In this document: positions 6,501 to 22,179 of the stretch, piece after piece
Numbering within the stretch: position 1 is the first letter of the stretch
How the letters are laid out: each line of letters begins with the position of its first letter
Source: Dyella jiangningensis
Lineage (GTDB): Bacteria > Pseudomonadota > Gammaproteobacteria > Xanthomonadales > Rhodanobacteraceae
DNA length: 64,000 bases
Direction: 5' to 3'
Assembly (NCBI RefSeq): GCF_003264855.1
Contig: NZ_NFZS01000001.1
Span: forward strand, 2,294,001-2,358,000
Program-made: the position numbers and the translations under genes
The notes under the pieces: generated by a model
Seen by the model: only the letters and a program-made list of their open reading frames with translations
Databases searched by the model: none
What the model was told of the DNA's origin: nothing

Positions 6501-6788
6501 ACGCTTGAGGTCGATGGCACGCATCTGCGACGCGCGCACGCCCGATACGTTCACCGTCGCCAATGTCGCCGCGCTCTTCTCGGCATCGCTTTCCTTCTTG
6601 TCGGTCTTCTTGGCGTCGGGAGATGGCGTTGCCGGCGCGGGCGTGGTCTGTGGCGTGGTGGCCTGCGGCGCCGGGCCGTCGGGCTGCATGTCGGCGAAGG
6701 TCGAGGCCGAGGCCGATGCCGATACGGCAGCGAACAGCGACACGGTGATGGCAAAAGACAAAGGATGCTTGCGAAGTACGGTGGACAT
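3582..6788 (-). CDS. TonB-dependent receptor (Xanthomonas/Caulobacter type)
   Basis: A 1,068-residue outer-membrane receptor. The start at 6788 gives a proper signal peptide (MSTVLRKHPLSFAITVSLFA), whereas the frame stays open upstream without signal-like sequence. After a Pro/Thr-rich linker (residues 40-70) comes the plug, with VNVSGVRASQMRAIDLKR, NIGALPDTTITDSLQRVTGVQ and DVRGLPQ, which is the pattern of the large TIGR01782-type receptors. The C-terminus MFMLGVRGQW ends in an aromatic residue as needed for barrel assembly. Known members import glycan fragments across the outer membrane with TonB/ExbBD energy. The neighbours GH2, GH20 and glucokinase suggest an amino-sugar oligosaccharide ligand, which is inference. 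Confidence 0.92.
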   Translation of the reverse strand: MSTVLRKHPLSFAITVSLFAAVSASASASTFADMQPDGPAPQATTPQTTPAPATPSPDAKKTDKKESDAEKSAATLATVNVSGVRASQMRAIDLKREAPNIQDSITAENIGALPDTTITDSLQRVTGVQINRDAGVGTSVDVRGLPQVGTMLNGEVFITADQIDSQQPDFTMLPSTLFHGVDVIKSTTASTTDGGISGAIDLHTYRPWDLPSGFTYSYSANGERGSTTEHTGPEANGLISYNDNGHWGLLVSADYSDTRRMNATEGLDQYGVVFNGENAASAGGYNGFLTPWNGAPIPSKIVQNADGSVDVNGDGKSNGVFMGSQDIGLNDIITQRKRKSANASFQMDLGSGFTATSDFFYSQQHEYNRNFGIQFNSTNWQGATYVPLQSRNTGSPALGSYGTPEPGWEGSQIYTTQVYQKWPGDVESYSSMIQKDSIAKNFNLQLDYDNGGPFTASVRGIHDTASQSYQETDINISDSDGALWPNVLMDGVDPNSVPPGTMVYPAQLGGNRVFNANGIPQNTVPIVANFNGRYITVSVPSSLAANFANPSDWTMKTLESSGDYDRKVALNALRFDGKYDFQDGFKLEFGLRNSIRSADNNGWTLETPVYAGMGASDPNGCLVRYVGADVVLNSGDCTAGNDVGYFRAGPLSAVSMPNTAAPLANNFKQYTNLLGSGINFWAIDPSALKDPVSYWKSLYPDTVKVAEPGTTWAVRLKELTGYLQGDFNGTLWDMPYSGNLGVRLIRTHLDVTQHLTGAPGSYGDEPIDAGTALTKRSYQDVLPSFNFSLDITDSLKFRLAYSKNMMPLDLSTWGGGLQLNYSLAETPQGPIFRVSNGTSTGNPDLNPWRSTNYGASLEYYINPTSMLSLALFRINVDSFIKNGSVTNCDLPDEDGVVRNHCIVITQPVQGTGNSIHGAEFDYRQGFTFLPGFLSKTGMEINATYAPSNSGEKDLAGKEIPFQDNSTKSGNLILWYQDDHFQARVAYNYRSRRAVMDSVGGITGMEMYEAPQKYLDASISYKFSKYAEVFLDGTNLTNEYQRYYLVWPDQPGHSTFSERMFMLGVRGQW

Positions 6789-6948
6789 GGGCTTTGACCT
6801 CGTTGGTGTTGCCTGTCGAACCTCAACTGCTCCGTGGGTAATCCGAAATGCGTACCGCGCGACGGTGCCGTCGGCACGCCACCGTGATGCGATGTGTCTG
6901 CCTCCCCAGTCCGGACGTCGTGCGCCCGGGCTGCTCCTGCCACTACTT
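6789..6948 (-). promoter_or_regulatory. Upstream region of the TonB receptor gene
   Basis: About 160 bp between the receptor start and the hairpin after GH20. It must hold the receptor promoter. A small inverted repeat (GTGCC, 3 bp, GGCAC at 6865-6877) overlaps GACGG-TG-CCGTC (6861-6872). No copy of the 16-bp palindrome found upstream of glk occurs here. The core promoter could not be placed with confidence. Confidence 0.35.
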
Positions 6949-6968
6949 CGCGGAGCGCCTGCTCCGCG
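6949..6968 (-). terminator. Hairpin after GH20
   Basis: Perfect 8-bp stem CGCGGAGC/GCTCCGCG with a 4-nt loop, starting 5 nt after the GH20 TAG on the minus strand. There is no U-run, so it is a probable but weak intrinsic terminator. It separates the glk-GH20 unit from the receptor gene. Confidence 0.45.
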
Positions 6969-6973
6969 ACCCG

Positions 6974-9310
6974 CTATTTCGATAACGTCACGCGTGCCAA
7001 TGCCCACTGGCCATCGCGTGGATCGCCAGTGGCGAAAATGCAAAGGTCACGCACGTCGCTCCCCGGCGGCATGGCGACCTTGGCATCAAGACGGTGCTGT
7101 CCCTGGGCGTGTGTCACGCCATCCAGCGGCAGGCGCGCGAGCAGCGGACCCGTGCACGAATCGCCATGGATCTCGAACTCGCCGGCTGCGCCTGCCTTGT
7201 TGCGGACCACGGCGTCCCTGGCTTCGTCGCCAAAGCGCCACGCGATGCGTTCGACCAGCAGCGAGACATGCGTGACGCCGCCCACCGGCGCCTGAGGCCA
7301 TGACCAGCACGCATTGCCGATGTCCACGCTGTAGGTCGGCCGTGGTCCCTTCGCCGGCTTGCTGCCATCGAGGCGCGAGCCGGGCTGGTGGGAGCAGGTT
7401 TCAAGCGCGCTGCCGTCACGAGCCTGCAAGGCGGTTTCGTCCACCACCTGCGTACGTGGCGCGGCAAGCTCGAAACCGTCCGATGCGAAGGTGGCGGCGC
7501 GCAGGGTCACGGGGCCCGTCAGCGTGAGGGCTTGCGTGTACCGCGTGGACTGGTTGGTGGGATCGGATCCATCCGTCGTGTAGCGAATCGTTCCGAAATG
7601 CGACTGGTTGAACAGCTCGACGCGGAGTGTGCCGCGAGATGCCGCGGATACCTGGAAGGAGGGCGCGAACGCGCTGTCGGCATAGTCGATGCCGAGCGCG
7701 CGGTAACGTGCCAGCTCGGCCGGCATGCGCTGAAGGAAGCCGTTCCAGTCGTGCGCCTCGGCGGGCGACCAGCCAAGCTCTGCCAGCGCCGCGATGCGTG
7801 GGAACACCGCATGCTGGTCATGCGCGAAGCTGCGCATCTGCTCGGCCCAGAGTCCGGCCTGCACGCCGATGATGTGCCTGGCTTCGTCCGCGCTCGCGCC
7901 CTGCGGGACGACGGCCGTGTCATAGGCCTGCTGCAACGTCACCGCCGGAGGCGGGCCTGCCCACTCGTCGGGCAGGTCGGACTGGATGTGATCGAAGTAC
8001 AGCGATTCCTGTGGCGTCATGATCACGTCGTGGCCCTGCTTGAGGGCGGCGAGCGCCACGCGCTCGTTGTGGTCGCCATGCCACGACATCACCACCTGCG
8101 ACTGCGGCAGCGTCACGCCGGCCGCCAGCTCGTCGTCCCAGCCCACCGGTATGCGCCCATGCTTGAGCAGATGCTCCGCTACCTGCTGCATGAACCAGGC
8201 TTGCAGCTCATCCATGTTCGCCAGGCCGAGCCGCTGCATCCGCGCACGCGTTTCGGCCGATGCGTTCCATTGCTGCTTGTCGGCTTCGTCGCCGCCGATG
8301 GAGATGTAGCGCGAGGGAAACAGCTGCATCATCTCGTCGAGCACGTCATCGACGAACTGCAGGGTCTTTTCATCGGGCTTGAGCAGCCAGGGGCTGACAC
8401 CCCAGTCGGTCCACACGGGCGGACGCGCGCCGGTGACGCCAAGCGATGGATAGGCGGCGATGGCCGCCTGGGAATGTCCGGGCAGGTCGAACTCCGGCAC
8501 GACGTCCACGTAGCGCTCGGCGGCATAACGCACGACGTCGCGCGCCTGCGCTTCGGTGTAGTAGCCGCAATAGGGTTGTTCAGTCGAGCCGGTGAGTTCG
8601 GCGTCGAGGCCGACTGCCTTGCGGCATGCGCCGATCGTCGTCAGTGCAGGGTACTTGGGAATCTCGAGGCGCCAGCCCTGATCTTCGGTCAGATGCCACA
8701 GCAGCACGTTCAACTTGTTGAGCGACATCCAGTCGATCAGCTTCTTGATGTCGGCCACGCTCTGGAAATGCCGCCCGGAATCGAGCAGCAGGGCACGCCA
8801 TGCGAACCGTGGATGATCGTCGATGACGCCGTACGCTACGTCGACGGGTTTGCCTCGCGCCCATCCGGGCGGCGTGAGCAGCTGCCACAGGGTGACGCTG
8901 CCGTAGAACGCGCCGCGCGGCGTTCGCGCCGTCACCCGGATGCCTTCGTCATCCACGGTGATGCGGTAGCCGGATGCGTCCGCGATATCGGCACCCGCGT
9001 CCATCTCGAACGTAATCGTCGGGTGCGCCGCATCCGTCGTCGTCGTCCGCAAGTGCAGCGCATGGGTGTCGGCCAGCCGCTGCACCAGTCGCTCGGCGAT
9101 GCGTTGCACCTCCGGCTGATCCGGGCCGTGCACGCGAACGATGGCGCCATCCGCGACCTGGACCACACCCGATCCGGCCGCTTTGGCCATGGCCGGCTGT
9201 GGCAGCAGAGACCATGCAGGCGTGACGGGCGACGCCATGGCCGCGCCGCACACCACCAGCCAGGCGACGGCGGCACAGCGGAGCAGGCGGGCTGTCGCGA
9301 CGCGGCTCAT
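6974..9310 (-). CDS. GH20 beta-N-acetylhexosaminidase
   Basis: A 778-residue exported enzyme that removes terminal beta-GlcNAc or GalNAc from oligosaccharides, probably in the periplasm. The N-terminal signal segment (ATARLLRCAAVAWLVVCGAAMA) is followed by a GH20b domain and then the TIM barrel with HLTEDQGWRLEIPKYP, VVPEFDLPGHSQAA and SIGGDEADKQQW. The last holds the conserved Asp-Glu pair for substrate-assisted catalysis. A C-terminal chitobiase-type domain (FGTIRYTTDGSDPTNQSTRY, about residue 590) and a further beta-rich region follow. The ATG at 9310 overlaps the glk stop by 4 bp (ATGA), so the pair is translationally coupled. Signal peptide and overlap both support this start. Confidence 0.93.
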   Translation of the reverse strand: MSRVATARLLRCAAVAWLVVCGAAMASPVTPAWSLLPQPAMAKAAGSGVVQVADGAIVRVHGPDQPEVQRIAERLVQRLADTHALHLRTTTTDAAHPTITFEMDAGADIADASGYRITVDDEGIRVTARTPRGAFYGSVTLWQLLTPPGWARGKPVDVAYGVIDDHPRFAWRALLLDSGRHFQSVADIKKLIDWMSLNKLNVLLWHLTEDQGWRLEIPKYPALTTIGACRKAVGLDAELTGSTEQPYCGYYTEAQARDVVRYAAERYVDVVPEFDLPGHSQAAIAAYPSLGVTGARPPVWTDWGVSPWLLKPDEKTLQFVDDVLDEMMQLFPSRYISIGGDEADKQQWNASAETRARMQRLGLANMDELQAWFMQQVAEHLLKHGRIPVGWDDELAAGVTLPQSQVVMSWHGDHNERVALAALKQGHDVIMTPQESLYFDHIQSDLPDEWAGPPPAVTLQQAYDTAVVPQGASADEARHIIGVQAGLWAEQMRSFAHDQHAVFPRIAALAELGWSPAEAHDWNGFLQRMPAELARYRALGIDYADSAFAPSFQVSAASRGTLRVELFNQSHFGTIRYTTDGSDPTNQSTRYTQALTLTGPVTLRAATFASDGFELAAPRTQVVDETALQARDGSALETCSHQPGSRLDGSKPAKGPRPTYSVDIGNACWSWPQAPVGGVTHVSLLVERIAWRFGDEARDAVVRNKAGAAGEFEIHGDSCTGPLLARLPLDGVTHAQGQHRLDAKVAMPPGSDVRDLCIFATGDPRDGQWALARVTLSK

Positions 9311-13286: not shown

Positions 13287-14894
13287 CTACTCCAGCGGCA
13301 GTCCCGCATCGCGCAGGCGTTGGCGCAGGCCATCCAGCTTGTCGCCGTACCGTGCGCTGCGTGCCGTGTCACGGCGCAGCGGCTGGCGCACCTGCGCGGC
13401 GCTCGGTGCGCTCAATACGGTGCGCGCCGTCTTGTGGAAGGCGAGGCAGGCGGGGTCGAACGGCAGGTCGCAGAAGTCCAGCAGTCGCCGGATGACGGGC
13501 TCGGGCTCATCCACCAGCGATTCGTAGGGAAGATCGAGCACGCGGTCGGGATATCGCTGCAGCCAGAAGCGGGTAAGGCGCGTGAAGTCGATGCAGTAGT
13601 CGGCCATCTCGTCGAGATCGCAGGTGAAGCCGGTCTGCTCGGTGAAGCATTGGCGATAGCACGCCAGGCAGGTCTCGACCGGATCCCGGCGAACGATGAC
13701 CACGCGCGCGGCCGGTAGCATCGTCAGTGCCGCTCCCACGAGGTACCAGGTCACCAGGCTCTTGTCGGTGAAGCGCGGTTTGACCTTGCGCCACAAAGCG
13801 GTGCGCACGAGATACTCGCGGCCCAGCCGTTGCCAGTCACCGGCGCTGGCGTCGGGCGCCCACAACGGGAAGGCCGAATGGCGGCGGCGCGTTTCCGCGT
13901 CGATCACCTCCGGCATGTCCTTGATCTCGTTCGCGCCCTCGACGTCCGGATGCGACGCGAGGATCTGCTCGACCAGCGTCGAGCCGGAACGCGGGATGCT
14001 GACGATGAAGATGACTTCGCGGCCCAGCCCGGGATCCAGCGGCGCCGGCATGTCGTTGGCGAAGATGCGCTGGATCGCGTCCACGCGCCGGCGTTCTCCC
14101 GCGGCGTCCCACGTCACCCGTTCGCGGCGCGAGGCATTGGCGCGCCGGAACGTCTCGAATGCTTCGCGATAGTCGCCCTGATCTTCTTGCGCTTTCGCCA
14201 GGGTAAAGCCGAGCAGTTCGCGATGACGCGCCGGCAAGCCTTCACGAGCCAGCGCGCGCTGGAGGCTGGCCGCGTCCGTTGCGTCGAAACGCACGGTGTT
14301 GAGATTCGACAGGCCGAACCATCCTTCGGCGTTGACCGGATCCCTTCGCAACACCTCGCGAAAACCCGCCACGGCGTGATCGATCTCGCCGAGGCTAGCC
14401 TGCGCCTTGGACAACGACAGTCGGGCCGGCACGTGCGCCGGATCGAGTTCGAGTGCGCGGTGCAGGGCGGCAACCGCCTCGGCGGTGCGTGTCACCCTGG
14501 CCAGTGCTTCACCGAAGTTGAACCAGGCCGGGGCCGATTGCGGCTGCAGTTCGCACGCCTGCCGCATATGCGCCAGGGCCTGGTCGATGCTGCCGCGCTC
14601 GAACAATGCGATGCCGAGGCAGACATGCAGGTCGGAATCGTGGGGCCACACCGGCAGCACGCGCTGGAAACAGTCGATGGCCTGCGTGTGATTGCCGCGG
14701 CGCTGGGACACCATGCCCAGCATGCGGGTGGCAGTGGGCTCGTTCGGCACGAGGGCGAGCACGCCGATCAGGGATCGCTCCGCCGCATCGAAGGCATGGC
14801 GCGACCATGCTTCGCGCGCCTGCGCCAGCATGCGCTCGGCCTGCGCGGAAAGCGGTTGCCGCGGCATGTCGTGCGCTGACCGAGGTTCTGTCAT
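13287..14894 (-). CDS. TPR-repeat sulfotransferase
   Basis: A 535-residue protein. Residues 20-230 form about six tetratricopeptide helices (for example PTATRMLGMVSQRRGNHTQA and DLHVCLGIALFERGSIDQAL). Residues 290-520 form a sulfotransferase domain with the PAPS-binding loop FIVSIPRSGSTLVEQI and a second 3'-phosphate motif near VVIVRRDPVETCLACYRQ. Such proteins transfer sulfate from PAPS to an unknown acceptor; the TPR part may bind it. No signal peptide is seen. In Xanthomonadales such genes often sit beside TonB receptors, as here, but a good terminator between the two indicates a separate transcript. Acceptor unknown. Confidence 0.87.
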   Translation of the reverse strand: MTEPRSAHDMPRQPLSAQAERMLAQAREAWSRHAFDAAERSLIGVLALVPNEPTATRMLGMVSQRRGNHTQAIDCFQRVLPVWPHDSDLHVCLGIALFERGSIDQALAHMRQACELQPQSAPAWFNFGEALARVTRTAEAVAALHRALELDPAHVPARLSLSKAQASLGEIDHAVAGFREVLRRDPVNAEGWFGLSNLNTVRFDATDAASLQRALAREGLPARHRELLGFTLAKAQEDQGDYREAFETFRRANASRRERVTWDAAGERRRVDAIQRIFANDMPAPLDPGLGREVIFIVSIPRSGSTLVEQILASHPDVEGANEIKDMPEVIDAETRRRHSAFPLWAPDASAGDWQRLGREYLVRTALWRKVKPRFTDKSLVTWYLVGAALTMLPAARVVIVRRDPVETCLACYRQCFTEQTGFTCDLDEMADYCIDFTRLTRFWLQRYPDRVLDLPYESLVDEPEPVIRRLLDFCDLPFDPACLAFHKTARTVLSAPSAAQVRQPLRRDTARSARYGDKLDGLRQRLRDAGLPLE

Positions 14895-14998: not shown

Positions 14999-17900
14999 TC
15001 AAAAATCGTAGGCCACCGAGAACCTGACATAGCGTGGCGAGAGCGTGTCCTGCACCCGGCCGAAGTCGGGATTGGGGCTGGAGGTGGTGCCGAAGAAGTC
15101 GTTGTAGAAAACCGGCGTCTGCTGATCGAGCAGGTTGAACACCGCGAGGTTGAAATCGAGCTTGTGATCGGCCCAGCCCGGTTTGTAATCCACGTTGAGG
15201 CCCACCTGATGCGTCCACGGCAGGCGTCCCAGCGAACCCGGCGGAACCGGTTCGCCGCCGCACCAGTAATACGTGTGCGAGCCATGCAGCGCCAGCTGGT
15301 TCGGGCCGTAGCCACCGCGGCAAAGCACCGGCGTGCCGGAGGCAATGTAGAGGTTGGCGCCCAGCGTCCAGTCCGGAGCGACCTGATAGGCGCCGTAGAT
15401 CTTGAACTGGTGCCTGCGATCGTTGGGCAGCACGCCGGAGGAGTACTCCATGCGCTCGGGGAAGTCCCAGCCGGTGGTGAGCGATTCGTACGAGCCGCCC
15501 TGCTGCGAATACGTGCTGACCGGGCCTTCGTCGTTACCCCAGGTGCGGGAGAACATGTAGTCGAACTTGGCGAACCACTTGCCGTCCCACGCGTGTTCCA
15601 GCGAGAGGTCGAGCGAGTAGTAGCGGCGCGTCGGTCCCTTCGGGAAGCCCTGGTCCTTGGCGCTGAGCGTCACCGGCACGAGCGCGCCGGTGGGCGACTG
15701 CATCCACAGGTTGCTGGTCTCGCCCGGGTTGATCAGCACCAGGCTCTGCGCCCACTGGCTGCAGGTGTCGGGCGTCATGTAGGCATAGCCTTGGGCACGC
15801 CCGGCCGCGCATTCGATCTGGATGTCGTCGAAGTCGTCGATGATTCGGTTCATGCGCTGGTACGTGCCGGTCGCGCCGAACACCCACGGCGTCCCCAGCA
15901 TCTCGAACTGCTGCTGCAGGCCCAGCACGTAGTTGTCCGAGTACTCGGCCTTGATGTTGCGCGAGGCGGACACGCGCGGATCCTTGGCCTGGCCGTATTC
16001 GCTGTCGATCGATACGCCCGTCGACGGATTCTGCGGCAGCGGCGTGAAGCCGGTCGGCGCGCCGGTGGCGGGATCGATGCCGGTGTAGGTGCCATACACA
16101 CCGGCGTTCGTCACCGGCGCGGCGATGGACAGCGCCACCTGTTCCGGCAGCGCGAGGTAATAGCGGCCCGCATTGCCGAACACCTTCAGCGAGGAGTCGC
16201 CGTGCACGTCCCAGCTGAAGCCCAGGCGCGGCGCCCACTGCGGCTTGGTCAGGCGGATGTACGGCACGCCCGAGGCGTCGTAGTTGGTGAACTGGTCGTT
16301 GCGAATGCCCAGGTTCAATAGCAGGTTGGGCGTCACCTGCCAGTTGTCCATGATGTACTGCGCACGTTGCGCGACGCGCACGGACGCCACGCTGATGTCG
16401 GTGTGCTGCTGCACGTAATAGCAGCGAACGGTGCCCGTGGAATCCGGATGGCACTGGGTCGATGGCGCCACGTAGGGCGGAACGTTCGGGTCCACGCCGA
16501 ACACCGGCGAGCCGGGGTCGCTCTGCCCGTAGATCCACTGGTATCCCGGGCCCGGATTCACCGAGCCGTCGTTGATGTCCCTGGAGTTGATGTTGTCGAT
16601 GCCGACCTGGAAATCGTGGTCGCCCAGTTTGTAGTCGAGGTCAAGCCGGTAGTTGGTTACCGACTCCTTGTGGTTGGGGTCGGTGATCGTCGAGTTGATC
16701 TGCGAGTTGGAGATGCCGCCAGGCGGCACGAACGCCGGATCCTGCACCGAACTGCTGGCGATGTGCGGCAGCAACGGGTCAAAGCCCTCGTAGCCCGGCT
16801 GGCTCGTGTAGTACGAGCCGTGCATCTTGCCGACCATGGCGTTCAGGGTCAGGTTGTCGGTGAGGTACGAGGTGTAATTGGCCACCCAGACCTTGAAGGT
16901 GGTCCGCTTGATCTGGTCGAGGCTGTTGAAGTCGCCCGGCTTCAGGGTGTCGTAGTCGAAGTCGTAGATGGTGCCGGCGGTCTTGTGCGAGTTCTGCACG
17001 TAGCTCGCGCTCAGCACGTTGCTGTCGTTGATGTTCCAGTTGAACTTCGTATAGAACTTCGGATCGTGCACCTTCCACGTTTCGGTCGTGGCGGTGCTGC
17101 TGAACTCCGACGTGGTGCGGTAGTGGGAGTCGTCCTGCTCCAGGCCGATGTAGAAGAACAGCTTGTCCTTGATCAGCGGGCCGCTGATGTAGGCGTCGTA
17201 GATCGTCTCGCTGCTGTCGTTGTTGTTGCGATAGACGGCGAGATCGCCAGGCCGGTTGCCCTGGCTGCTCACCAGCTTGTTGGCGTAGTAGTAGTTGTCG
17301 GGATCGTTGCGCAGGCTGCCCGGCTGCCACAGGGCGCGGGCGCCGAAATGCCACTCGTTGTCGCCGCTCTTGCCGATCTGGTTGATCACGCCGCCGATGG
17401 AGCGTCCATAGCGCGCGTCGTAACCGCTGATGAAGGTCTGCTGCTGCTCGATCGCGCCATAGGGCAGGGAGATGCCGCCCTGGTTGTTGAGCAGCTCGGT
17501 GGTGTTCATGCCATCGAGGTAGTACGCGTTCTCGGCCGTCGATGCGCCGCCGAACACCAGGTTCGGCGTGCCCAGCGGGCCGGTGCCGATTTCGGGCGAA
17601 CCCAGGTTGACGCCCGGCGCCAGCAGGGCGATGTCCTCGGCGGTGCGCTGCAACGGCAGCTGCTGCAACTGCTTTGCCGTGATGGTGGTCACCTGGTTGG
17701 TGGTGCTTACGTCGATCGGCGGAAGCGCATTGCCCGTGACGCTGATGGTGCCGAGCGTACGCGCTCCCGTGGTCGCGCCCGGGGCGGCGAAATCGACGGC
17801 CACCGCGCCGGCGGCCGCCGGGCTTACGCCGCTGCGCGAATCCACGACCTGGCCGTTCTGCAGCAGCGACACGGTGTACGTGCCCACCGGCAGCGTCACC

Positions 17901-18130
17901 GAATATTTGCCGGATGTGCCCACGTCGATGGTGCGGTTGAAGCCCGAGCCGCCGGTGATCTGGACGGACTCGCCGGCCACCGCGGGCACCGTGCCGTAGA
18001 TGGTGCCGCTGGTCGCCTGTGCCCATGCGCCGCCGGCGACGCCGAAGAGGATCGAGCCAATGGCAAACGGTAGTGCCTTGTTCTTGAGTACATGCTGGGG
18101 ACGCAACGTACGCAAAGATTTGCCCTTCAT
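14999..18130 (-). CDS. TonB-dependent receptor with carboxypeptidase-regulatory-like N-terminus (Oar type)
   Basis: A 1,043-residue outer-membrane receptor. Signal peptide KNKALPFAIGSILFGVAGGAWAQ; residues 30-110 form a small beta-sandwich (IYGTVPAVAGESVQITGG, YSVTLPVGTYTVSLLQNGQ) like the carboxypeptidase regulatory domain of Oar-like proteins; then a plug (ITAKQLQQLPLQRTAEDIAL, YYLDGMNTTELLNNQGG) and a long beta-barrel ending RYVRFSVAYDF. Oar-like receptors are linked to peptide or protein uptake. A GTG at 18142 is an alternative start. Its promoter module (18410-18478) matches that of dgcN without gaps, which suggests control by the same LysR protein and a ligand related to D-glutamate or glutamyl polymers. 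The ligand is inference. Confidence 0.9.
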   Translation of the reverse strand: MKGKSLRTLRPQHVLKNKALPFAIGSILFGVAGGAWAQATSGTIYGTVPAVAGESVQITGGSGFNRTIDVGTSGKYSVTLPVGTYTVSLLQNGQVVDSRSGVSPAAAGAVAVDFAAPGATTGARTLGTISVTGNALPPIDVSTTNQVTTITAKQLQQLPLQRTAEDIALLAPGVNLGSPEIGTGPLGTPNLVFGGASTAENAYYLDGMNTTELLNNQGGISLPYGAIEQQQTFISGYDARYGRSIGGVINQIGKSGDNEWHFGARALWQPGSLRNDPDNYYYANKLVSSQGNRPGDLAVYRNNNDSSETIYDAYISGPLIKDKLFFYIGLEQDDSHYRTTSEFSSTATTETWKVHDPKFYTKFNWNINDSNVLSASYVQNSHKTAGTIYDFDYDTLKPGDFNSLDQIKRTTFKVWVANYTSYLTDNLTLNAMVGKMHGSYYTSQPGYEGFDPLLPHIASSSVQDPAFVPPGGISNSQINSTITDPNHKESVTNYRLDLDYKLGDHDFQVGIDNINSRDINDGSVNPGPGYQWIYGQSDPGSPVFGVDPNVPPYVAPSTQCHPDSTGTVRCYYVQQHTDISVASVRVAQRAQYIMDNWQVTPNLLLNLGIRNDQFTNYDASGVPYIRLTKPQWAPRLGFSWDVHGDSSLKVFGNAGRYYLALPEQVALSIAAPVTNAGVYGTYTGIDPATGAPTGFTPLPQNPSTGVSIDSEYGQAKDPRVSASRNIKAEYSDNYVLGLQQQFEMLGTPWVFGATGTYQRMNRIIDDFDDIQIECAAGRAQGYAYMTPDTCSQWAQSLVLINPGETSNLWMQSPTGALVPVTLSAKDQGFPKGPTRRYYSLDLSLEHAWDGKWFAKFDYMFSRTWGNDEGPVSTYSQQGGSYESLTTGWDFPERMEYSSGVLPNDRRHQFKIYGAYQVAPDWTLGANLYIASGTPVLCRGGYGPNQLALHGSHTYYWCGGEPVPPGSLGRLPWTHQVGLNVDYKPGWADHKLDFNLAVFNLLDQQTPVFYNDFFGTTSSPNPDFGRVQDTLSPRYVRFSVAYDF

Positions 18131-18651
18131 GACGATGTGCACTCCACTCTGTTGATACGCCCGTACTGCGTCTTCAAGCCGAGGAGCGTGCGTCCGTCTT
18201 CACGACTGCAACAGGACGCGGGTGGCTTCGCGGCAACGAAAGTCATGCGAGCCACGCGGCTCGGCAGACGAAACCCAGGCATGACCGGGCAAACAGGCGG
18301 CAACAGCGCGGCACGACATCACGACATGGATCGGCCCGCGGACAGATCCTGCGTTGTGTTGGCATGCGCTGCGAGCGGCTCTCCCCAACCAGCCCACTAG
18401 TGCGTGAAGGAGCGTAGTCTCCGGCAGGCGCGAGCCGCCAATGAAAAAACATCGGCTCACCATAACTGGGGGTTATGGAGATCGCGGCGTTCGTGGTTGG
18501 ACGACGGCGCGACGTCCTGGGCCGCGTGTTTCCACGGGGAGGCCGCATCGGCGCGGGCATGCCTGAGACGTGTTGCAGCGTCCAAAGGGCGCGGATCAGT
18601 CGACGCGCGGACAGCGAATCATGCGTGCACCTGCAGTACGTCGACCTTGAA
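18131..18651. other. Intergenic region between gltS and the TonB receptor gene
   Basis: About 520 bp with no convincing gene. It holds the 69-bp promoter module at 18410-18478 and, below it, an untranslated leader of roughly 270 nt for the receptor mRNA. No riboswitch class was recognised in the leader. No clear terminator follows gltS. Confidence 0.6.
18410..18478 (-). promoter_or_regulatory. LysR-type operator plus promoter of the TonB receptor gene
   Basis: Read on the minus strand: a perfect inverted repeat CCATAAC-N5-GTTATGG (containing T-N11-A), 12 bp, TTTTCATTGGC, 20 bp, then TACGCTC as the likely -10. The same blocks at the same spacings occur upstream of dgcN (21089-21157). The conserved half-site, middle box and -10 over 69 bp without a gap indicate a common activator, probably the LysR protein at 21277. 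Confidence 0.75.
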
Positions 18652-19851
18652 CTACTTCCAGACGTTGACGAACACCGTGATGATCACGGCGTTGGTGAAG
18701 TCGATGAGGAAGGCGCCCACCACCGGCGCCACCAGGAACGCACGCGGTGCAGGACCGAAGCGCTCGGTCAACGAGCTCATGCAAGCCATCGCATTGGCCG
18801 TGGTGCCGAGCATGAAGCCGGTAAAACCGCTGGCCATCACGGCGGCATCGTAGTCGCGACCCATCAGCTGCAGCAGCGGCCAGCAACACAGGGCCACCAC
18901 AAGGACGGTTTGCAGCGCCAGGTTCACCAGCAGCGGCGCGGCCATGCCCGAGAGATCCCACAGGTGCAGGTCCATCAGTGCCATGACGAGGAACAGCGAG
19001 AGGCTGATGTTGCCGATCAGCTCCATGCTGCCTGCCGACAGGCCGAACCAGCCGAGGCGGTCGTCGATGTTGCGGATGACCGCGCCCGCCAGCATCGCGC
19101 CGATATAGGCGGGAAGGGTGAGGCCCAGCATGCCCAGCCCCGCGCTGATCCATGCGCCGATGCCCATGGCGATCAGCATGAATACGAGGCTCTTGAGTCC
19201 TGCATAGGCCGGGTCCACGAAACGGCGCTTCGGCGGCACTGTGATCGCGGGCAATTCGTCCTCGGCAGGCGCGGCATTGGCGGGATAAAGCTTGAGCCGC
19301 TCGATCAGCAGCGCCGCCAGCGGCGCGCCCAGGATGGAGCCGCAGACGATGCCGGCCATCGCATTGGCCAGCGCTACGCTCTTGGCGCCTTGCACGCCGG
19401 CACTGGCGAACAGCGGCGCAAACGCCAGCCCGGTCGCGGGGCCTCCGGCCAGCGTGGCCGAGCCGGTCACCACACCGAACAGCGGCGGCAGTCCGAACGC
19501 CTTGGCCATGCCGACGCCAAGCAGGTTCTGGATCACCGCCAGCGCGCTGGCCAGCCCAAGGAACAACAGGATCTGCCGTCCGCCGATCTTCAGCAGCGTG
19601 GTGCTCGCGTTGAAGCCGATGCCGGTGAAAAAGGCGATCATCAACGGCTGCTCGAAGCCGGTGTCGAAGCGTATCGGCGTGATGCTCCAGTGGCGGCATG
19701 CGAGCATCGCCAGCGCCACCAGCAAGCCGCCGATCACCGGCGCCGGGATGCTGAAGCGCGCCAGCAACGGCACGCGCCGGCGGATGCCATAGCCGACGAG
19801 CAGCAGCAGGCCGCCGCAGGCCAGGGTCTGTATCGAATCGAGTGTCAGCAC
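18652..19851 (-). CDS. gltS: Sodium/glutamate symporter GltS
   Basis: A 399-residue inner-membrane protein with about ten hydrophobic segments in two inverted halves. Family motifs include the glycine-rich re-entrant regions GVVTGSATLAGGPATGLAFA (about 125-145) and FTGFMLGTTANAMACM near the C-terminus. GltS takes up L- and D-glutamate with Na+. The start is GTG at 19851, giving LTLDSIQTLACG; no better ATG is nearby. It follows dgcN by 35 bp and is probably its operon partner, which fits import of the substrate that DgcN acetylates. Length matches the family. Confidence 0.9.
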   Translation of the reverse strand: MLTLDSIQTLACGGLLLLVGYGIRRRVPLLARFSIPAPVIGGLLVALAMLACRHWSITPIRFDTGFEQPLMIAFFTGIGFNASTTLLKIGGRQILLFLGLASALAVIQNLLGVGMAKAFGLPPLFGVVTGSATLAGGPATGLAFAPLFASAGVQGAKSVALANAMAGIVCGSILGAPLAALLIERLKLYPANAAPAEDELPAITVPPKRRFVDPAYAGLKSLVFMLIAMGIGAWISAGLGMLGLTLPAYIGAMLAGAVIRNIDDRLGWFGLSAGSMELIGNISLSLFLVMALMDLHLWDLSGMAAPLLVNLALQTVLVVALCCWPLLQLMGRDYDAAVMASGFTGFMLGTTANAMACMSSLTERFGPAPRAFLVAPVVGAFLIDFTNAVIITVFVNVWK

Positions 19852-19886
19852 GCGCGTTACCCAGGTCGACAGCGAGGGTGAGTATG

Positions 19887-20924
19887 TCAGTTCCCGAAGC
19901 TGGCGATGAGGTGGTCGGTGATGGCTTCCACGCCCATGGACACCGGATCCTGGCAGGGCAGGCCGAACAGGGCGCCGATGCGTTCGCAGGCGGCCTGCGC
20001 TTCGTCCGCGGGCAGGTTGGACGTATTGAGCGCGATGCCCACCGGTTTCACCGCGGGGTTGGTGAGCCGGGCCGCAGCGAGGTTGGCCTCCATGCAGGCC
20101 ATGAGATCCGGAATGGGGTAATCGGCCAGTCCGCGCATGTGGCGTCGCGTCGGTTCATGGCAGAGCACCAGCGCATCGGGCTGCGAGCCATGCAGCAGGC
20201 CCAGCGAAACGCCGGCGAACGAAGGATGGAACAGCGAGCCCTGGCCTTCGATCAGGTCCCAGCCGTGGTCGCCGCGGGCCGGCGAAATCGCTTCCGCTGC
20301 GCCGGAGATGAAATCCGCCACCACCGCATCGATCGGAATGCCTGCGCCCGCGACGAGGATGCCGGTCTGCCCGGTCGCGCGGAAGTCCGCCGGGCACCCG
20401 CGTTGACGCAACGAGCGTTCCAGCGCGAGCGCGGTATACATCTTGCCCACCGAGCAGTCCGTGCCCACCGTCAGCAGCCGCCGGCCCGCGCGCGGCTTAC
20501 CCGTGCCCACCGGCAGGCCCGGCTGCGGCGCGCGCGCATCGAACAACGCGCGGCCATTGGCGCGCGCGGCAGCCACGATCTCCGCCTGGTCGTTCAGCCG
20601 GTGATGCAGGCCCGATACCACGTTGAGTCCCGCCTCCAGCGCAGCGATGGTGTCGGCCACCATCTCCGGACTCATCACGCCGCCGGCATTGGCCACACCG
20701 ATCACCATCGTATCGGCGCCGTTGTCCCGGCTCTGCGCCAGGCCGACATCCGGCAGGCCCAGGGTTACCGCGCAGTCGTCGCGGCGGTGCTGGCCAAGGC
20801 ACCATTGTGGCCGCCAATACGCGAGCCCGCGCGCCGTCTTGATCGACAGGTCATCGGGGGCGCTGCCCAGGTACAGCAGGTATGGCGGTCCCCACGGGGC
20901 GACTTCTACGCCTTGAGCGGACAT
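19887..20924 (-). CDS. dgcN: D-glutamate N-acetyltransferase DgcN (DUF1611 family)
   Basis: A 345-residue cytoplasmic protein of the DUF1611 family. Recognisable blocks are YLGSAPDDLSIKTARGLAYW, IGVANAGGVMSPEMV, and a P-loop-like LLTVGTDCSVGKMYTALALE (about residue 150), then GILVAGAGIPIDAVVADFIS and IEGQGSLFHPSFAGVSLGLL. DgcN acetylates D-glutamate to N-acetyl-D-glutamate, which the partner DgcA then racemises. The start at 20924 has an excellent Shine-Dalgarno (AGGAGG, 8 nt upstream). It is the first gene of a dgcN-gltS unit with a divergent LysR gene. No dgcA is present in the window, so the pathway is incomplete here. Confidence 0.85.
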   Translation of the reverse strand: MSAQGVEVAPWGPPYLLYLGSAPDDLSIKTARGLAYWRPQWCLGQHRRDDCAVTLGLPDVGLAQSRDNGADTMVIGVANAGGVMSPEMVADTIAALEAGLNVVSGLHHRLNDQAEIVAAARANGRALFDARAPQPGLPVGTGKPRAGRRLLTVGTDCSVGKMYTALALERSLRQRGCPADFRATGQTGILVAGAGIPIDAVVADFISGAAEAISPARGDHGWDLIEGQGSLFHPSFAGVSLGLLHGSQPDALVLCHEPTRRHMRGLADYPIPDLMACMEANLAAARLTNPAVKPVGIALNTSNLPADEAQAACERIGALFGLPCQDPVSMGVEAITDHLIASFGN

Positions 20925-21276
20925 CGGCGGCTCCTCCTTGCGGGCAGATCGTTCCGTTCGTGGAAAGCCCATGCGCGACGGTCGCGTAGACGCTCCCTGC
21001 ATGGGGCGGCACAGGTCGGCTTGTTGCGACGGCTGCAGCGGGCCTGCGGCACGCGGCCATCGCGCGTCGGCGCATCCGTGCCGGGGGCGAGCATAGTCAA
21101 AGGCCCGAGCGCGCAGCCAATGAAAAGATGGGCACGAGGCATAACCGGCGGTTGTGGGTGCCGTGCGTCGCGGACTACGCCATGCCTTCTGGCACCGCCG
21201 GATTTGTCCGTCACTGGGTAATGTGCTGCACTGAAAGCGGGGCGGTCGCCGCAGTGGACCAGGTGGGGAGCGGGCT
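20925..21276. other. Divergent control region dgcN / lysR
   Basis: About 350 bp between divergent genes. It holds the 69-bp module (21089-21157) directed toward dgcN, leaving a dgcN leader of about 160 nt and about 120 bp on the lysR side. Such spacing is usual for a LysR gene and its divergent target. Confidence 0.7.
21089..21157 (-). promoter_or_regulatory. LysR-type operator plus promoter of dgcN-gltS
   Basis: Minus strand: CCACAAC-N5-GTTATGC (nearly perfect inverted repeat; the T-N11-A core has one change), 12 bp, TTTTCATTGGC, 20 bp, TATGCTC. Every block and spacing equals the module at 18410-18478. The -10-like TATGCT would start transcripts near 21083. Confidence 0.75.
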
Positions 21277-22179
21277 ATGCGTCTGCGTTACATCGAGCTG
21301 TTCCATGCTGTCCTTAGCACGGGCAGCCTCACCGGCGCAGCCAGCCTGTTGAACGTCTCGCAACCTGCCGCCAGCAAGGCGCTGCAGCAGGCCGAGAGCC
21401 ACCTGGGCTTCCCGTTGTTCAGCCGCGTGCGTGGCCGCCTGCAGCCAACGCCGCAGGCGCTGCTGATGCGTCACCAGATCGACAAGCTCATGCGCGATCT
21501 GTACGACCTGCGACGCCTGGCCGTGAACATCACCCGTCCGGAAAGCCATCCGCTGCGCGTTACCTGCACACCCGCGCTCGCGCAGGTGCTGGTGCCAGAC
21601 GTCATCGCGCGGCTGGGCGAGATCTACCCGGAAACCATCGTCGAGCTGTTCACGCAGCACTCGGCGGTGATGTGCGAATCGCTGATGCTGCGCGAAGCGG
21701 ACATCGGCCTCACCCTGCAGGACATCAATCACCACGGCCTCGTGCAGCAGCCGCTGTGCCGCGGCAACATCAAGGTGGTCGCACCGCCCGGCTGGTGGCC
21801 GGCGCGCGAACTCGACCGCCCCTTGCCGATCAAGGCGCTGGCAGGCCAGCCGATGATCGGCATCACCGTGCAGGATGCGCTGGGCGCGATGCTGCAGAAC
21901 CATCTCACCAAGGTCGACCCCGCACCCGTGACGCGTGTCTGGGTGCAGACCTACCAGCTGGCATGCTCGCTGGTCGCACGGGGCGGTGGCCTGGCCCTCG
22001 TGGATCCGTTCACCGCGCAATGCAGCCGGGAGCCCGTGCAGAAGCGCCCCCTGAAACTGGAAATGGACGTCGTCCTGTACGTCGTGTATCGCCCCGACAG
22101 CCCCCTCAGCGGCGTGCAGACACGCTTCCTGGAATACGTGGCGGAGATGGCGCAGAAGATGTTGGCGAATACGGCATGA
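21277..22179 (+). CDS. LysR-family regulator, candidate DgcR
   Basis: A 300-residue regulator. N-terminal winged helix-turn-helix: LRYIELFHAVLSTGSLTGAA followed by LLNVSQPAASKALQQAESHL and PLFSRVRGRLQPTPQA (residues 3-60). The effector-binding domain runs from about 90 to 295. Shine-Dalgarno GGGGAG precedes the ATG. It is divergent from dgcN-gltS, and a LysR box lies between them. A D-glutamate-sensing LysR regulator (DgcR) is known beside dgcN in other bacteria, so this is the likely activator of dgcN-gltS and, through the duplicated module, of the TonB receptor at 14999-18130. Function by context; the family is certain. Confidence 0.85.
   Translation: MRLRYIELFHAVLSTGSLTGAASLLNVSQPAASKALQQAESHLGFPLFSRVRGRLQPTPQALLMRHQIDKLMRDLYDLRRLAVNITRPESHPLRVTCTPALAQVLVPDVIARLGEIYPETIVELFTQHSAVMCESLMLREADIGLTLQDINHHGLVQQPLCRGNIKVVAPPGWWPARELDRPLPIKALAGQPMIGITVQDALGAMLQNHLTKVDPAPVTRVWVQTYQLACSLVARGGGLALVDPFTAQCSREPVQKRPLKLEMDVVLYVVYRPDSPLSGVQTRFLEYVAEMAQKMLANTA

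Follow-up and report, generated by a model that had tools for sequence, protein, structure and literature searches.

A promoter module shared by dgcN-gltS and a TonB-dependent receptor in Dyella jiangningensis: a probable LysR-activated regulon with a likely role in D-glutamate scavenging

Two 69-bp modules of matching sequence lie on the minus strand of the 64,000-nucleotide stretch of the Dyella jiangningensis genome analysed here (contig NZ_NFZS01000001.1, positions 2,294,001 to 2,358,000; hereafter ‘the window’), one located between a lysR gene and dgcN, the other between gltS and the gene for a TonB-dependent receptor. We consider it probable that both are promoters activated by a LysR-type transcriptional regulator (LTTR), namely the product of the adjacent lysR gene, and that the regulon thus defined scavenges D-glutamate—a mirror-image amino acid that occurs in bacterial cell walls—its source probably being gamma-D-glutamyl peptides. 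The shared LTTR promoter is the well-supported part of this proposal, and the D-glutamate purpose of the regulon a likely one. Comparison of sequences establishes the identity and rarity of the modules, their conservation, their linkage to the same genes across genera and their co-occurrence with the LysR ortholog.

The genes of the locus run dgcN, gltS, receptor, TPR-sulfotransferase on the minus strand, with the LysR gene divergent. Its features, in window positions, are as follows:

21277..22179, plus strand: LysR-type regulator (PF00126, PF03466), transcribed away from dgcN and presumed to act on both modules
21139..21157, minus strand: palindrome CCACAACCGCCGGTTATGC in the dgcN module; probably the regulatory site bound by LysR, centre at about -65
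21116..21126, minus strand: TTTTCATTGGC in the dgcN module; probably the activation site, over a poor -35 (TTGGC)
21089..21095, minus strand: TATGCTC; putative -10 of the dgcN-gltS promoter
19887..20924, minus strand: dgcN, N-acetyltransferase DgcN (NF041892 equivalog, 513.5 bits, cut-off 480; PF07755, PF17396); start chosen by us within a longer open reading frame (ORF), 19887-21002
18652..19851, minus strand: gltS, sodium/glutamate symporter (TIGR00210 equivalog, 331.1 bits, cut-off 310.75), 35 bp behind dgcN
18460..18478, minus strand: palindrome CCATAACCCCCAGTTATGG of the receptor module; strict T-N11-A
18437..18447, minus strand: TTTTCATTGGC of the receptor module
18410..18416, minus strand: TACGCTC; putative -10 of the receptor promoter
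14999..18142, minus strand: TonB-dependent receptor, 1047 amino acids (PF25183, 92.8 bits; PF07715 Plug, 32.7 bits)
13287..14894, minus strand: TPR-sulfotransferase (PF13469 and TPR families), behind the receptor; possible operon partner

Two matching modules and their layout

Read directly, minus-strand bases 18478-18410 and 21157-21089 both conform to CCAYAAC-N5-GTTATG-N13-TTTTCATTGGC-N20-TAYGCTC without a gap, just as the first-pass annotation of this DNA had described them. A 40-base pattern (MYAAC-N5-GTTRTG-N13-TTTTCATTGGC, with up to three mismatches) matches the window at exactly these two modules and is absent from 100 dinucleotide shuffles; extended to the whole genome, a search which that annotation had proposed, it returns the same two matches in 4,758,053 bases and none when reversed. 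A sequence-only profile scores the modules at 64.3 and 61.3 bits (both being part of its training set) and the next site in the genome at 13.2.

The outer part of each copy had been taken for a LysR-type inverted repeat, T-N11-A. This holds strictly for the receptor copy (CCATAACCCCCAGTTATGG), but not for the dgcN copy (CCACAACCGCCGGTTATGC), which reads C-N11-A; the dgcN copies in the 13-locus comparison given below likewise carry C where a strict match needs T. As T-N11-A is a loose consensus, the substitution makes the dgcN copy weaker as a textbook site, and leaves the likeness of the two copies unaffected.

The distance from the centre of the palindrome to the last base of the putative -10 is 58 bp; if transcription starts 7 bp beyond the putative -10, the interrupted palindrome would be centred near -65 in both copies, with TTTTCATTGGY spanning approximately -43 to -33 and including a poor -35, TTGGY. 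By the same geometry the receptor transcript would start near 18404 and carry a leader of about 260 nt. A consensus scan of positions 18100-21300 found no sigma-70 promoter. To judge from sequence, the arrangement fits an LTTR-activated promoter with a weak -10: in a published account of LTTR promoters (PMC5603801), a regulatory site with T-N11-A usually lies near -65 and an activation site near -35, the latter generally without an identified conserved motif. The modules resemble the promoters described there in the palindrome at about -65, the divergent regulator gene, the second element over the -35 and the absence of a consensus core promoter, yet differ from them in that the activation-site motif is near-fixed, the decamer TTTTCATTGG being exact in 100 of the 111 distinct modules collected. 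If this reading is right, the promoter family would be well suited to dissecting an LTTR activation site, since that site hardly varies in it.

In several relatives (L028, L029, L110-L116) we also observe, by eye, a possible short hairpin, its loop rich in G and containing GGA, in the receptor leader, directly behind the receptor module (for example GGGCATGGAGGATGTCC in L028); its counterpart in the window would be at 18320-18409 on the minus strand.

Conservation of the module in relatives

The first-pass annotation had named a motif not conserved among relatives as one outcome that would count against it; the motif proves to be conserved there. All 13 distinct loci that have both dgcN and the receptor (the window and 12 others, L118 being counted out as a repeat of L030) carry the module before both genes, including five at which the two genes are rearranged (L110, L111, L113, L114 and the Steroidobacteraceae locus L037). 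Relatives' copies depart from the 31 consensus positions by 0-2 mismatches; the exception is the dgcN copy of L037, which has five, and in which the -10 is one base closer. Averaged over the 13 promoters of each set, conservation of the palindrome is 0.89 before dgcN and 0.87 before the receptor, and that of TTTTCATTGGY 0.96 in both; values for the -10 are 0.89-0.93, for the spacers 0.64-0.72 and for the flanks 0.43-0.50 (dgcN) and 0.44-0.59 (receptor). Across the 111 distinct modules, from 108 loci, the spacing between palindrome and TTTTCATTGG is 13 in all but one (3-29 being allowed), and TA[CT][GC]CT follows the decamer at 21 or 20 bases in 86.

Recent duplication of a single DNA stretch as the source of both copies was considered and rejected, because at the 13 loci, which span several genera, the two copies differ in their fourth base, the dgcN copies having C and the receptor copies T; this difference is not universal, C being found before the module-linked receptors L176_9782 and L180_5890.

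Further afield, the lower-scoring dgcN paralogs L119-L127 (DgcN 46-53% identical) have no module, even with up to 10 mismatches allowed. The palindrome alone (at most one mismatch) is found within 300 bp upstream of dgcN at 25 of the 65 loci examined in more distant taxa, sphingomonads in many cases, as against 0.5% of random windows; within the bases examined, none of these palindromes has the exact decamer behind it, and so it looks, on sequence grounds, as though the operator predates the decamer.

Co-occurrence with the LysR ortholog, DgcN and the receptor

Of 233 family genomes, 51 have a module according to a sequence-only model built from 41 modules (the window's two and those of other tested loci among them); we kept 48 of these, dropping G014, G112 and G162 as weak (E 0.005-0.008). 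A plain pattern, free of any model, recovers the same 48 together with G082 and G085 (two mismatches each), and nothing when reversed. The LysR ortholog (threshold E up to 1e-60) is present in 46 of the 233 genomes, 45 of them shared with the module, and in only one of the 185 module-less genomes (Fisher p 2.6e-43 over the 233 genomes, with kinship ignored). DgcN is found in 57, scoring over its cut-off in 43, every one of which has the module; among the 14 genomes with only a lower-scoring or split DgcN, the module is present in three and absent from 11. The distribution is patchy even within the genus, with module and LysR in nine of 20 genomes. In an even draw across the order 28 of 398 genomes have the module, six of them outside the family, with one locus each and dgcN (three), gamma-glutamyltransferase (two) or a second receptor family (one) as the neighbour. 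The earlier proposal of shared LysR control over receptor and dgcN-gltS is thus, as a prediction from sequence, strongly supported by conservation, by the rearranged loci and by co-occurrence.

The receptor, for which ‘Oar-like’ is a label taken from the first-pass annotation, has both plug and beta-barrel domains over cut-off. Its orthologs (77-100% identity) occur in exactly the nine genus genomes that have the module; the remaining 11 offer matches of at most 51% identity. In a tree, 23 module-linked receptors form one clade (100/100, and 100% of 200 bootstrap trees) against 16 genus paralogs. The tree took 23 of 26 module-linked rows, omitting L129 (the window's own, cut) and the partial L143 and L162_18636, and 16 of 58 lower-scoring genus matches; the branch of one non-module row, L211, is 10 in length, and that row is unreliable, probably through a wrong frame.

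As a separate observation, the TPR-sulfotransferase gene lies behind the receptor wherever the stretch covers that position, across the rearrangements (L028-L030, L037, L110-L118, L161-L180).

Genes behind the module

Behind 106 distinct modules the first gene is most often DgcN (34) or a member of the receptor family (25), the window's own being included in each; a second receptor family of about 830 amino acids follows with 16, gamma-glutamyltransferase with 12, an amidohydrolase cluster with three and M81 peptidase with two. Five are singletons (an amidohydrolase, a receptor, a sodium:solute symporter, an amino acid permease and a truncated ORF), and no gene was called behind nine. These proportions are biased, as the loci were fetched partly via dgcN; the genes come from a rough codon-position ORF caller, with Pfam scans of one or two representatives per named cluster and longer stretches examined for part of the module matches, and the count includes weak modules scoring below 40 (L039, L040, L041, L042, L044 and L177). 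The amidohydrolase, whose best NCBIfam match is PRK09061 (219 bits, below the cut-off of 340), may be D-aminoacylase-like.

Several loci bring these genes together. G178 and G028 have, in one run, LysR, module, second-family receptor, module, gamma-glutamyltransferase, dgcN and gltS. At L031, dgcA (424.7 bits, cut-off 400) is located between dgcN and gltS, and L036 has dgcA (439.6 bits) and gamma-glutamyltransferase behind dgcN; by eye, the gamma-glutamyltransferase of relatives seems to have a signal peptide. G061 has eight modules in about 51 kb (C15:426776-478007; L161-L163), the most in any of the 233 family genomes. One of them precedes a run of amidohydrolase, DapF (224 bits, cut-off 115) and a protein resembling D-amino-acid transaminase, which at 246 bits falls short of its cut-off of 277; the stretch also holds amino acid permeases, an S12 hydrolase and a gamma-glutamyltransferase, as well as genes that have no clear link to this theme (among them an EPSP synthase, a GH20 enzyme and a FAD oxidase).

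Proposed mechanism

We propose that a LysR tetramer would occupy both the palindrome, near -65, and TTTTCATTGGY, from about -43 to -33 over the poor -35, and that D-glutamate, or a compound related to it, would prompt the protein to switch on two transcripts, one of dgcN-gltS and one of the receptor, the latter probably including the TPR-sulfotransferase. Material containing D-glutamate would then cross the outer membrane by way of the receptor; enzymes of the periplasm (in relatives, gamma-glutamyltransferase) would release D-glutamate; GltS would import it; and DgcN would N-acetylate it for racemisation, by DgcA in relatives. Binding and activation by LysR, its inducer, the ligand of the receptor and the stereospecificity of GltS are the steps that we infer.

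The first-pass annotation had pictured a three-layer D-glutamate system comprising outer-membrane uptake, inner-membrane symport and N-acetylation. Such layering fits what we find, and is strengthened by relatives that put gamma-glutamyltransferase and dgcN-dgcA behind the same module; the ligand of the receptor and the action of GltS on the D-isomer stay conjectural, and the layers themselves vary, with relatives adding gamma-glutamyltransferase and the window locus being without the racemase DgcA. In the window genome the DgcA-like and gamma-glutamyltransferase genes are unlinked and there is no third module, so the regulon would there consist of two transcripts.

More tentatively—we would not count on it, but take it seriously—the module-linked receptors may be dedicated outer-membrane importers for gamma-D-glutamyl material, placed under the DgcN-linked LysR through a near-invariant activation element at fixed spacing; candidate materials are peptidoglycan stem peptides (such as gamma-D-Glu-meso-DAP) and poly-gamma-D-glutamate.

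Alternative readings

A number of observations weigh against the proposed regulon or its D-glutamate purpose. The TA[CT][GC]CT element was not found behind the decamer in 25 of 111 modules, and since many loci were fetched by a fixed-spacing model or via dgcN, neither the spacing count nor the share of dgcN is independent. Three of the 48 module genomes (G065, G066 and G242, in 220-530 contigs) have no detected LysR ortholog, and one genome, G191, has LysR with no module. Receptors were checked in all module genomes within the genus and in part of those outside it. DgcA over cut-off is absent from both the window locus and the genome (best 377 and 359 bits, cut-off 400), the two gamma-glutamyltransferases and two best DgcA-like proteins of this genome lie outside the module locus, and a profile search of it found no third module. 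The family name of GltS does not separate D- from L-glutamate; the regulatory link is drawn from comparative genomics, and the ligand of a receptor is not readable from its sequence.

The module could in principle be a general promoter element, or the site of some other regulator, with the neighbouring LysR coincidental. In favour of such an account, TTTTCATTGGY varies unusually little for a site of LTTR activation, the connection of LysR to the module comes from sequence, and three module genomes have no detected LysR ortholog; yet 45 of 46 LysR genomes have the module and 184 of the 187 others are without it, each of the nine module-bearing genomes of the genus has two copies only, and the palindrome is enriched before distant dgcN genes, many with a remote LysR nearby. 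We regard this reading as highly improbable. It is also unlikely, in our judgement, that LysR controls both promoters in the service of L-glutamate or of general gamma-glutamyl peptide use (glutathione, for example), with DgcN as a minor branch. That the names GltS and gamma-glutamyltransferase are not D-specific, and that sequence does not disclose what the receptor binds, would suit such a regulon; it sits poorly with the module's presence in all 43 genomes with DgcN over cut-off, with DgcN as the commonest first gene (a count biased by locus fetching), with dgcA behind dgcN at L031 and L036, and with the G061 run of amidohydrolase, DapF and transaminase-like protein, the last of these below its cut-off.

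Unlikely, too, is that the receptor module is real and the receptor itself imports a substrate unrelated to D-glutamate, useful when cell-wall debris is available, such as a metal chelate or some peptide connected with the TPR-sulfotransferase. The constancy of the TPR-sulfotransferase as the receptor's neighbour speaks for this, as does the silence of the sequence on ligands; on the other side, two receptor families stand behind a module that also precedes gamma-glutamyltransferase and DgcN, which favours a ligand belonging to the pathway of those enzymes. Our preferred explanation is the LysR-activated, D-glutamate-scavenging regulon.

Relation to known systems

In Pseudoalteromonas the regulator DgcR activates dgcN and dgcA. 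SusCD-type and CUT-type loci are nutrient-linked loci in which a TonB-dependent receptor is found with a regulator and enzymes. The present regulon would resemble these in the joint control of receptor, periplasmic enzyme, inner transporter and regulator, and differ in its substrate, which would be D-glutamate or gamma-glutamyl material, and in having an LTTR as regulator. The DgcN-DgcA pathway for D-glutamate, reportedly described by Yu et al. in 2023 in the ISME J, is recounted in PMC12363236 and PMC10845958, the former of which does not mention TonB. Like that pathway, the window has a DgcN over the NCBIfam equivalog cut-off, and relatives (L031, L036) have dgcA behind dgcN; unlike it, the window locus is without dgcA, and the regulon adds TonB-dependent receptors, gltS and, in relatives, gamma-glutamyltransferase. 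The components are thus of known kinds, an LTTR regulon and the DgcN pathway; we found no published account of their combination in the literature searched. If the proposal is correct, a class of TonB-dependent receptors without known ligand gains a testable substrate; outer-membrane uptake, gamma-glutamyl cleavage, inner-membrane import and N-acetylation of D-glutamate would be joined in one regulon; and it would suggest how these Gammaproteobacteria could use cell-wall debris as food.

Further observations

In the window genome the better DgcA-like gene precedes an oligopeptide symporter gene, and there are two similar pairs in which a DgcA-like epimerase is followed by a symporter: L181 (G000 C1:864549), where the symporter is of the oligopeptide:H+ symporter family, and L182 (G000 C4:78659), where the ORF looks alike by eye. 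At L044 (Hydrocarboniphaga effusa; positions 6847 and 8696), two similar genes next to dgcN are each preceded by a related palindrome with ATTCATTGGA or TTTCATTGGA; the gene that was scanned encodes an M81/MlrC-type metallopeptidase, and the module scores at this locus are weak. Lastly, L110 has, at 6551-9304 between dgcN and the TPR-sulfotransferase/receptor genes, an S12-type protein, whose best matches (AmpH, class C beta-lactamases and D-aminopeptidase) all fall far below cut-off, and the 3-hydroxy-D-aspartate aldolase BhcC (742.5 bits, cut-off 690).

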